From: Trichococcus palustris
GTDB taxonomy: Bacteria > Bacillota > Bacilli > Lactobacillales > Aerococcaceae
Assembly (NCBI RefSeq): GCF_900114465.1
Contig: NZ_FOTD01000009.1
Location: 1 to 64,000 of the forward strand
Length of the DNA: 64,000 bases
Direction of reading: 5' to 3'
Shown: piece by piece, positions 16,409 through 61,712 of the stretch
Layout: each line of letters opens with the position of its first letter
How positions within the stretch are numbered: position 1 is the stretch's first letter
Translations under genes and position numbers: made by a program
Notes under the pieces: model-generated
The model's database searches: none
Told to the model about the DNA's origin: nothing
Seen by the model: the letters and a program-made list of their open reading frames with translations, nothing else

Positions 16409-16443
16409 GGTTTGTCATTTTTTGACAGCCAGGAAGTATCAAG

Positions 16444-16640
16444 TTTTTTGATATAAAGCGCATCATTGCAGGCGTTTCACAGGTTCCTAACCTGTTTCAC
16501 GCCATCACATGATGTCTAGCGGTCCAAGCCTGCCTCTCGGAAATTAGATAAATCTGCCCCATTGCGCTCTACGATGCTCATTCAGGGTCAGATTTCCTAA
16601 ATTTCTGTCGAGGCAGGGCGGGCTTGGGCCGCTTTTCTTA
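16444..16640. repeat. Structured repeat element, copy A (short form)
   Basis: Fills most of the gap between yqeM and tmcAL. It begins TTTTTTGATAT, then the 5' hairpin in which GCATCAT pairs with ATGATG (16460-16515) around CAGGTT/AACCTG. The clamp arm AGCGGTCCAAGCCTGCCTC (16518-16536) pairs with GAGGCAGGGCGGGCTTGG and GCCGCT (16610-16633). The loop between the arms contains AAATCTG/CAGATTT. TTTCTTA follows the clamp, so it could also terminate transcription. Homologous to 61277-61712 and in part to 37506-37885. Confidence 0.8.
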
Positions 16641-37215: not shown

Positions 37216-37221
37216 CTAGTT

Positions 37222-37470
37222 ATTGATGAATGGAACACCCGAGGGGAAGATACTTCCAGCGAGTTAGCGAGCGGTGAAAGGCTAACAAGTCACTCTTTTC
37301 TTAGGATCCTCCACGAGAATCTTTTTGAATATACAACAGTAAAAAAGGTCGCCTGAACAGCGTTAACGGTTTGAATGAGGAAGGAATATCCGCCTGCAGA
37401 GGGTCGTTATTGCTTTGAATTTGGGTGGTACCACGAAGACTTCGTCCCTTTAGGAGACGGGTCTTTTTTG
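37222..37470 (+). promoter_or_regulatory. T-box riboswitch, isoleucine type
   Basis: Leader that senses uncharged tRNA-Ile. The T-box core GGTGGTACCACG is at 37423-37435. The competing terminator is at 37436-37469 (AAGAC/GTCTT with CGTC/GACG, then T residues). On the 3' side of stem I the triplet ATC (37306-37308) fits an Ile specifier, in agreement with ileS downstream. Stem I distal features GCGAG and GGTGAAAG are visible. Confidence 0.9.
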
Positions 37471-37505
37471 CATTGTAGGAAAATATATATATTTTCGAGT
37501 GCAGA

Positions 37506-37885
37506 AGTGCATCACCGTAGGTGTTTCACACGTTAGTAAAATGTTCCGAATGTTAATGAATTGTCCAGCTTCACGGGTTAGCCCTTCGGAAAAGGGATGA
37601 AGGAACCTCTTGTCTCTGCGAGCCAAGACATACTGTTCGACTAACCTGCTGACGCAGGAAGTCTCTCAGCAATTGCACTCTACGATGCTCATTTGCATGG
37701 GACTCTTAGGGATTCATCCCTTAGAGCCCCAGTATAAGGTGACCGTAGGGAACGTTGCAGGGCCAGATTTCCTAAATTGTCATGACTCTTGCGATTTCAA
37801 TCGCTTAGAGGCATGATACACTTGACCGTTCAGGTCACAGTGTTTCCTTACTCAGGGCTGAACGAACCCGTTCAGCATTTCTTAA
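37506..37885. repeat. Structured repeat element, copy B, inside the ileS leader
   Basis: Starts AGTGCATCACCGTAGGTG, parallel to copies A and C. Contains GGAACCTCTTG, a hairpin (37609-37627), the invariant ACATACTGTTCGAC (37628-37641) and AGTCTCTCAGCAATTGC. It also has a strong hairpin at 37703-37726, CAGATTTCCTAAATT as in copy A, and a terminal hairpin GCTGAACG/CGTTCAGC followed by ATTTCTTAA. The GC clamp of A and C is replaced by this different stem. It lies between the T-box terminator and ileS, so it should be transcribed. Confidence 0.75.
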
Positions 37886-55051: not shown

Positions 55052-55302
55052 GTATAAACAAAGCGACGATCAAGAGGAGTAACTTTACCGGAACTACCAA
55101 AGAGAGAAAAGCAGTTGGTGAGAGCTTTTTTGGGGAAGGAAAGCGAAGTAGCTTGTGAGCAGGTGGTGTGAACGTCTACGGACTGGGTAGCATGACTCGG
55201 AGTATACTCCGTTATCAAAAAGAGAGACAGGGGAAAGTCCCTGTAATTTAGGTGGTACCGCGATAATAATCGTCCTGCATATAGTTGCAGGGCGTTTTTT
55301 TT
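55052..55302 (+). promoter_or_regulatory. T-box riboswitch, valine type
   Basis: Leader sensing uncharged tRNA-Val. Specifier GTA (55148-55150) in the context GCGAAGTAGCTTG. Stem III hairpin ACAGGG/CCCTGT is near 55227-55243. The T-box core GGTGGTACCGCG is at 55251-55262, and the terminator CGTCCTGCA/TGCAGGGCG with eight T residues at 55271-55302. Confidence 0.94.
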
Positions 55303-61220: not shown

Positions 61221-61255
61221 AAAGGGTCCGGGACGAAAGTCCTGGGCCCTTTTTT
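61221..61255 (+). terminator. Second csp terminator
   Basis: AAAGGGTCCGGGAC, loop, GTCCTGGGCCCTTTTTT. Confidence 0.93.
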
Positions 61256-61276
61256 AGATGTCTAAGAAAGTTTAAA

Positions 61277-61712
61277 TTTTTTTGATATGAGAAGCGCATC
61301 ATTGCAAGTATTTCACAGATTTCTAAGAAGTTTCACGCCATCACATGATGTCCAGCGGTCCAAGCCTGCCTCTGGGAAGGGAAGAGGAAGGGTCCTCTTG
61401 GCTCTGCGAGCCAAGACATACTGTTCGACAAGGCATGAGTTCTTGTCATCTTTGCTACCTAAATAAGATTCCAAGAAGCACCTCAAACGTCGCACTGTGA
61501 CGAATGAAGGAACCTCTTGAATCTTACGATTCAAGACATACTGTTCGACTAAACGATTGAAAACGCTAGTCTCTCAGCAATTGCGCGCTATGCTCAAATG
61601 CATATTAGTCTTAGGAATTCATTCCTTAGACTACTAGTACAAGGCGGCTGCAAGGAACGTTGCTTCCTTAACATTTCTGTCGAGGCAGGGCGGGCTTGGA
61701 CCGCTTTTCTTA
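61277..61712. repeat. Structured repeat element, copy C (long form)
   Basis: Begins TTTTTTTGATAT, then GCATCATTGCA...ATGATG and the clamp arm AGCGGTCCAAGCCTGCCTC (61354-61372). It ends with GAGGCAGGGCGGGCTTGG and ACCGCTTTTCTTA (to 61712). Between the arms is an insert of about 300 nt. It has two hairpins (61397-61415 and 61516-61535), each followed by the invariant ACATACTGTTCGAC, then AGTCTCTCAGCAATTGC and a hairpin at 61606-61633. No open frame with a ribosome site. Related to copies A and B. Confidence 0.82.

Follow-up and report, generated by a model that had tools for sequence, protein, structure and literature searches.

A modular hairpin repeat beside mreB of Trichococcus palustris, probably a mobile DNA element of the EFAR type

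The repeat beside mreB and its copies in the genome

What is the long palindromic stretch that separates a cold-shock gene from mreB in the genome of Trichococcus palustris? When it was picked out from the sequence as an unexplained repeat of about 435 nt, three options were offered for it: a structured RNA, a miniature mobile element, or a repeat used by a DNA-binding factor. Empty and filled sites, interspersion, tandem arrays and near-identical copies in four families support the mobile element, and a role confined to RNA is weakened by the lack of wobble asymmetry in the helices. We consider this repeat, hereafter copy C, to be probably a modular, non-autonomous mobile DNA element of the EFAR type.

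The window, that is, the whole stretch of DNA analyzed, comprises 64,000 nt (contig NZ_FOTD01000009.1), and the element features described below lie on its forward strand. Copy C spans 61257 to 61711, between the terminator of the cold-shock gene and the promoter region of mreB; the identity of both flanking genes was borne out by Pfam. Comparison with empty sister sites places its start at about 61257, directly 3' of the terminator T-run (61250-61255), and its end at about 61711. The setting behind the cold-shock terminator had been given correctly, and the ends were moved so that the element is slightly longer than first described. The terminator, a hairpin followed by T6 (61221 to 61255), is the insertion target; the 10 empty sister sites have a similar one, whose hairpin ends with ...GGGCC(C)TTTTT or a slightly different sequence.

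The 5' module of copy C (61262 to 61352) starts with CTAAGAAAGTTTAAA, where the consensus of the family, read by eye, is CTAGGAAAGTATAAA, and continues into a decayed first stem-loop ending in TGTCC. A clamp closes the second stem-loop: its 5' arm (61354 to 61372) and its 3' arm (61682 to 61705), which runs into the T-rich end of the element (GCTTTTCTT; arm and end together 61682 to 61711), were found in the sequence and by an inverted-repeat search, and the clamp covaries in relatives. The repeat search gives a clamp core of 17 nt, 94% complementary, with 318 nt between the arms, in good agreement with the GC-rich arms of about 19 nt around some 300 nt that had been described. Inside the clamp lie inner module 1 (61373 to 61503) and inner module 2 (61504 to 61672), with limits set by eye; each holds one copy of a 23-nt module that the repeat search finds twice, at 61407 (61407-61429) and 61527 (61527-61549). 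Module 2 starts where module 1 breaks off (TGTGACG) and the same joint recurs in another element of the genome (E18), so that inner modules seem to have been exchanged within hairpins.

The stretch folds with an energy of -145.1 kcal/mol, compared with -116.3 +/- 5.4 in shuffled sequences (z = -5.35; 0 of 100 shuffles as good). The 5' module has lost its fold (z = +1.48), and 187 of 200 shuffles do equally well. Copy C is therefore the longest copy in the window and not the most intact one; the claim that it is the most complete member of its family fails on this decayed module, whereas copy A still forms both stem-loops side by side (z = -8.63, and z = -5.03 for its 5' module on its own). Copy A (16424-16640), the minimal Trichococcus form, lies upstream of a HIGH nucleotidyltransferase gene, and in all 12 sisters it is absent from this site. 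The predicted recurrence of the 5' hairpin and clamp there was recovered by BLAST (16444-16542 at 87%, 16601-16640 at 98%), as was that of the inner modules in copy B (37597-37758 at 76%). Copy B (37470 to 37884) bears a second type of clamp (ACGGGTTAGCCCT / AGGGCTGAACGAACCCGT). It directly follows the terminator of a T-box leader, and on its other side is the gene of a class I tRNA synthetase (IleRS-like); the leader (37217-37469) scores 83 bits, below the Rfam gathering threshold. A mobile hairpin here sits between a riboswitch terminator and the synthetase gene that belongs to it.

The repeat is real and abundant: copy C is one of some 40 copies in its own genome, well above the ten that had been named as the mark of a family. 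In the 2.93 Mb of this assembly (G000), BLAST gave 75 matches, from which 40 entries were assembled manually. Two of these, E32 and E33, do not differ even in their flanks; E06 and E40 each lie at a contig end and may represent a single split element; and a covariance model adds a further element at C6:68163-68287, which leaves at least 39 separate elements. Four draft contigs end inside an element or within about 330 bases of one. Read by eye, the 40 entries are modular. They combine a 5' stem-loop module, which is optional and begins near the consensus, with one of three clamp types, in which both arms change in step, and with inner hairpins that can replace one another.

Neither a coding sequence nor an ordinary terminator accounts for copy C, as the original prediction had also held. 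No open reading frame spans the element, and the overlapping frames of at least 40 aa reach at most 98 aa, on both strands; the element stands behind the cold-shock terminator, and 10 of 12 genomes with a similar terminator lack it. No Rfam family (release 15) matches any element of the window at the gathering score, and permissive settings give sub-threshold matches only (best E = 0.016). Among 14 other element-bearing loci searched up to E = 0.1, the three matches (cspA, tRNA-Sec and a weak Ref70) all fall outside the elements. The sole match in the window above the gathering score is a separate T-box leader at 55057-55280.

Insertion sites behind T-runs

The locus between the cold-shock gene and mreB was recovered in 12 of the 13 genomes of the genus. 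Ten sites are empty, and the two filled ones, in T. palustris and in G010, bear different elements at the same terminator. The site in G010 reads TTTTTAA, then the element, then ATGCCGG, where the empty site of G001 reads TTTTTAAATGCCGG; the target is intact, with at most 1-2 ambiguous bases. For copy C itself, the evidence of mobility is this one filled site against ten empty ones. At the 16.4 kb site of copy A, the only filled one among 13 genomes, the flanks have diverged and the sisters show no obvious terminator.

Of 243 queries in a search for natural empty sites among the loci analyzed, 60 gave candidates; 41 of these were inspected, and many show only differences in tandem number or modules. 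In one clean pair (L065 vs L159) an element stands behind the T6 of a terminator that is left intact, and in another (L099 vs the window) it starts at CTAAGAAAATAT. In a third (L329 vs L210), a lone unit of about 120 nt, which we take as the minimal mobile form, lies inside CATTTTAGGAGG, a T-stretch that is not part of a terminator. Across the clean pairs insertion is precisely 3' of a T-run, with no long target duplication and at most about 3 ambiguous A/T bases. A further pair (L101 vs L143) shows a replaced stretch beside a Shine-Dalgarno sequence on the other strand, without a terminator.

The same address recurs across the T. palustris genome, where copies appear to enter 3' of T-runs and mostly at gene ends. 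The 5' module reaches the score cut in 32 of the 40 entries, and 27 of these also have enough flank to be scored (of the 13 dropped, 8 had no 5' module and 5 too short a flank). In a loose test, a terminator T-run ends 0-5 nt before the 5' motif in 24 of these 27 copies, compared with 206 of 1500 random positions; in a strict test the counts are 20 of 27 and 59 of 1500. Three copies (E12, E27 and E37) fail both tests, E37 following what reads by eye as a long hairpin without a T-run. A scan for promoters and terminators gave results close to chance (2 vs 1.1 and 1 vs 0.6), and convergent stop codons, counted behind 22 of 39 elements, carry no weight here, since the count is wrong for at least E10, E23 and E28.

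Further copies also sit directly 3' of an element's own GCTTTT end, which builds tandem arrays. In two Enterococcus genomes, 37 of 105 loci among the best 150 matches listed hold two to four copies.

Relatives across Bacilli and likeness to known repeats

A search with the sequence of copy C matched all 13 Trichococcus genomes, 0 of 23 from other genera of the family and 2 of 24 from the order. A shorter core matched 33 of 395 genomes of the order (12 of 80 genera), including three from other genera of the family (G020, G023, G283). A covariance model, R1 (123 positions, 32 pairs), with the best 8 candidates per genome scored, extended the family at E <= 1e-4 to 61 of 398 Bacilli genomes and 19 of 146 genera, the relatives being similar in shape but not in sequence. 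Its relatives occur in 22 of 22 genomes of group g38, with 3 to at least 150 matches each; we assign g38 to Enterococcus from a sequence common to L337 and L124 (E. termitis). The recurrence that the original prediction had asked for extends in this way from one genome to all 13 Trichococcus genomes and to relatives across Bacilli.

Among named genomes, a pattern of the second clamp matched at least 117 stretches. The 80 listed include many Trichococcus species, Enterococcus moraviensis, termitis, caccae, crotali, ureasiticus, plantarum and ureilyticus, and Isobaculum melis; E. faecalis is not among these 80. Contigs recorded as 'Sedimentibacter sp. SX930' (L141, L149, L151) bear Trichococcus-type elements, and this record may be mislabeled. 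Relatives of another type read TGTCTAGCTCCAGCGCC...GGCGCTTCCGCTTTTC; we call them Bacillaceae-type, a label that we assume.

Near-identical elements (AGACTAGGGGATTATAAG...GTCCGCTTTTCTTA) are found in four families of the order (L105, L106, L107, L108 and L113). They stand mostly behind different terminators, with L108 and L113 at a common site, and they reflect either recent horizontal spread or contamination. By blastn, a method that distant forms would escape, neither copy C nor a Bacillaceae-type unit matched plasmids or phages, and an Enterococcus-type array matched no plasmid. Two pattern scans of viral contigs found one match and none, respectively. A 39.7-kb IMG/VR contig (L416) is the only viral contig with a Bacillaceae-type 20-mer.

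The finding that no Rfam family covers copy C agrees with the first impression that no known family was involved, but that impression has to be qualified, because the repeat is built like the EFAR palindromic repeats of Enterococci and like Efa-1. As De Gregorio and colleagues reportedly described them in 2009, EFAR elements are modular palindromes of 42-650 bp that consist of two independent stem-loops and target stem-loops, and their insertion is said to delete most of the target stem-loop. The repeats described here are likewise palindromic and built from interchangeable modules, as seen by eye in the 40 entries with their three clamp types, and R1 relatives are present in every Enterococcus genome of the set. 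Two adjacent independent stem-loops are found in copy A; copy C has lost the first to decay, and the minimal unit of Enterococcus consists of the second alone. Unlike EFAR as reported, these elements left the terminator intact at the mreB site and in the pair L065/L159, and they form a family in Trichococcus with relatives in other Bacilli. We therefore file copy C as EFAR-like and not as EFAR, since the likeness is one of reported description and not of sequence, and the reported target deletion was not seen.

PMC3733652 names the EFAR elements of Enterococci among MITEs, citing De Gregorio et al. 2009 (FEMS Microbiol Lett 292:7-12). The Efa-1 family of E. faecalis is described in PMC2267715 as a 163-nt intergenic sequence in 65 copies with two adjacent stem-loops; it resembles our repeats in its paired stem-loops and intergenic position, a likeness of description and not of sequence, and our guess is that Efa-1 and EFAR are the same thing. 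BOX of Streptococcus pneumoniae (PMC3049150) is modular as well (67-637 bp, with optional or repeated boxB modules), is over-represented between convergent genes, and in one copy forms a composite with two T-boxes. Again compared by description and not by sequence, it differs in that PMC3049150 has it cause target duplications. REP sequences, likewise short hairpins that occur where genes end, are believed to be mobilized in trans by RAYT, a Y1 enzyme (PMC3733652). In contrast to REP, our elements carry no GTAG/CGTC tag at the foot, make up a large compound hairpin whose foot reads T(G/A)TC(T/C)AGC, target T-runs, and were found without a dedicated transposase.

A literature search on the EFAR name returned only PMC3733652, one on Trichococcus repeats only unrelated riboswitch work, and five literal element motifs gave no occurrence in a text search. 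A word search of a 2024 MITE review (PMC10969869) found EFAR, Enterococcus and Bacillus unmentioned.

Selection on the fold, Enterococcus leaders and the candidate mobilizer

The Enterococcus copies raise the question whether the fold serves the host as RNA. A search at E <= 1e-10 gave 181 matches in 69 loci, and the best 150 were aligned. Among 135 distinct readable 3' flanks, 68 run into another element start and 67 were classed as terminal by script. A Shine-Dalgarno sequence follows the GCTTTTA end by 4-7 nt in 52 of these 67 (31 at 4, 18 at 5, 1 at 6 and 2 at 7 nt), orthologous sites in several species being counted separately, compared with 69 of 4000 random positions within 12 nt. In the 60 rows inspected, the 12 terminal flanks without one run into further repeat sequence. 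Elements of loci L327-L375 end 4-5 nt before the Shine-Dalgarno sequence, and in L330, L331, L336 and L355 arrays precede what reads as one gene across several species.

Such leaders, together with the strong RNA fold of copy C (z = -5.35), speak for a cis-acting RNA family, that is, a hairpin in the leader or at the 3' end that terminates, protects or processes mRNA and owes its spread and retention to its usefulness for the host. We consider this reading unlikely. Most scorable copies of T. palustris stand behind a terminator and only 3 of 39 have a Shine-Dalgarno sequence within 12 nt, empty sister sites are common, and the mismatches in the helices, described below, show no asymmetry of the G.U type. 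The spacing itself may be explained by T-run preference, which may suffice given that the T-stretch before the Shine-Dalgarno sequence was the target in the one empty site seen; its sharpness would still allow a leader function. Orientation adds no further signal. A first look at the best rows seemed to show a strong replication-strand bias, but after collapsing to 105 loci, with replichores assigned from GC skew and CDS strand in 40 windows, 83 of 105 element loci are on the leading strand, matching 300 of 364 CDS. Some IS200/IS605 elements show a lagging-strand bias; here element orientation mirrors gene orientation, and so there is no lagging-strand signal. Orientation relative to neighboring open reading frames was not relied on, being noisy because elements contain chance frames.

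The fold is maintained by compensated changes. Of 62 Enterococcus-type core units, 42 have a length of 118 nt, and the alignment comprises 41 of these. In the structure, which was itself drawn from these sequences, the 33 pairs form in 96.5% of cells (86.4% in shuffles), 18 of them have changes on both sides (13.3 in shuffles), and 168 cells are doubly changed (59.8 in shuffles). Pairing falls to 36-56% when partners are slid, and one of the five covariation measures, the number of further pair types, does not exceed shuffles (29 vs 29.4). A set of 38 diverse units shows compensated change in 23 of 32 pairs. In both alignments the foot, T(G/A)TC(T/C)AGC with CTTTT, and GATAA opposite TTCCTA inside the hairpin are near-constant. 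The foot of the clamp varies among T(G/A)TC(T/C)AGC, TGGCTAGC and TCTC(T/C)AGC, with GCTTTT at the other end.

An RNA helix is expected to tolerate G.U better than A.C. Counted as cluster-level events among 139 distinct units, mismatches are evenly divided, with 30 G.T and 30 A.C; the raw cells (133 G.T and 71 A.C) include 82 of the 133 G.T in two poorly paired columns on the loop side. As a yardstick, 21 tRNAs from the same loci give 41 G.T-type and 0 A.C mismatches, an outcome that the pairing rules of ARAGORN favor. A first small set had 36 A.C vs 8 G.T, and a Bacillaceae-type set 40 vs 32; the hint at the other strand taken from the small set was dropped in view of the larger cluster-corrected one. 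The symmetric mismatch classes argue against selection on RNA alone, and the fold looks constrained as DNA, or maintained by palindrome correction, rather than selected in RNA alone.

How would such a DNA hairpin move? We propose that the folded single DNA strand would be what is recognized, and that an enzyme supplied in trans would move the element, any effect on host RNA (as a partial terminator, RNase target or leader hairpin) being a side effect. Our best single guess for the enzyme, a tentative one that we would put at well under even, is an IS200/IS605-type Y1 transposase or a relative. The lack of a long target duplication, the hairpin ends, the T-rich left flank and the tandem joining would all fit single-strand transposition of the IS200/IS605 kind. 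Y1 genes are present in 12 of 13 Trichococcus genomes, where IS200/IS605 copies are seen by eye just 3' of terminator T-runs (L270, L281, L288, L291) and, in L282, immediately after the CAGCTTTTCTT end of one of the elements. Of the 22 element-bearing genomes, 8 have no Y1 gene, and 7 of these are assembled in 1-2 contigs. Judged as MITEs derived from IS200/IS605, the elements show precise insertion 3' of a short T-rich target without duplication and hairpin ends, but not ends that match the resident Y1 elements: the flanks of 20 Y1 loci differ from them by eye, and in the 3 of these 20 where element end motifs occur, they lie beside the IS and not as its ends. A search of the loci analyzed for an autonomous copy found no gene-sized interior, apart from 3 far-spaced arm pairs taken as chance.

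Six element-bearing genomes (G583, G521, G038, G053, G133 and G140) have neither Y1 nor reverse transcriptase genes, which makes the mobilizer a sharp question. These genomes would be accounted for if no dedicated enzyme were needed and replication accidents were enough, with template switching, tandem slippage and palindrome correction all prompted by the hairpin and the T-run; symmetric mismatches and differences in tandem copy number are what slippage and palindrome correction are expected to leave. We rate this as slightly less probable than an RNA family, for it leaves unexplained both the dispersal to dozens of unlinked sites with constant ends and the near-identical copies in four families. 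The least probable of these readings is retro-mobility, in which RNA copied by a reverse transcriptase of the group II intron type would be inserted behind terminators: group IIC introns do insert behind terminators, and the repeats occupy the same niche, behind intrinsic terminators on the same strand, in genomes of which 12 of 22 carry reverse transcriptase genes (G009 with one and without Y1), but 10 of the 22 lack such genes (including G583, G521 and G059), no intron ends or domain V were recognized by eye, and the solo unit of L329 lies in a T-stretch outside any terminator.

Returning to an element that moves as DNA, a broader reading can be put forward as a joint proposal, which we hold at somewhat short of even. 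EFAR may be the Enterococcus branch of a single superfamily of T-run-targeted DNA hairpins that extends across Bacilli, its members sharing their architecture and some near-constant stretches (by eye T(G/A)TC(T/C)AGC...YCGG...CTGTC...GCTTTT). Docking would be genus-specific, behind terminators in Trichococcus and 4-5 nt before the Shine-Dalgarno sequence in Enterococcus; the mobilizer would be neither a resident Y1 transposase nor a reverse transcriptase; and the leaders of dozens of Enterococcus genes would have been rebuilt. If this is true, the RNA family library lacks a repeat that is frequent in several low-GC Gram-positive genera, and there is a mobile element that finds its target by the hairpin and T-run which close a transcription unit. 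The 4-5 nt spacing in Enterococcus and the position of copy B make effects on gene expression directly testable.

A last observation concerns one locus of G059 (L081), which holds several tandem repeats of about 72 nt (GAAACAACTCTCTCTTCGTTCGTCTTGTACTTTTCAACATC...) that resemble the upstream module of the Enterococcus arrays.
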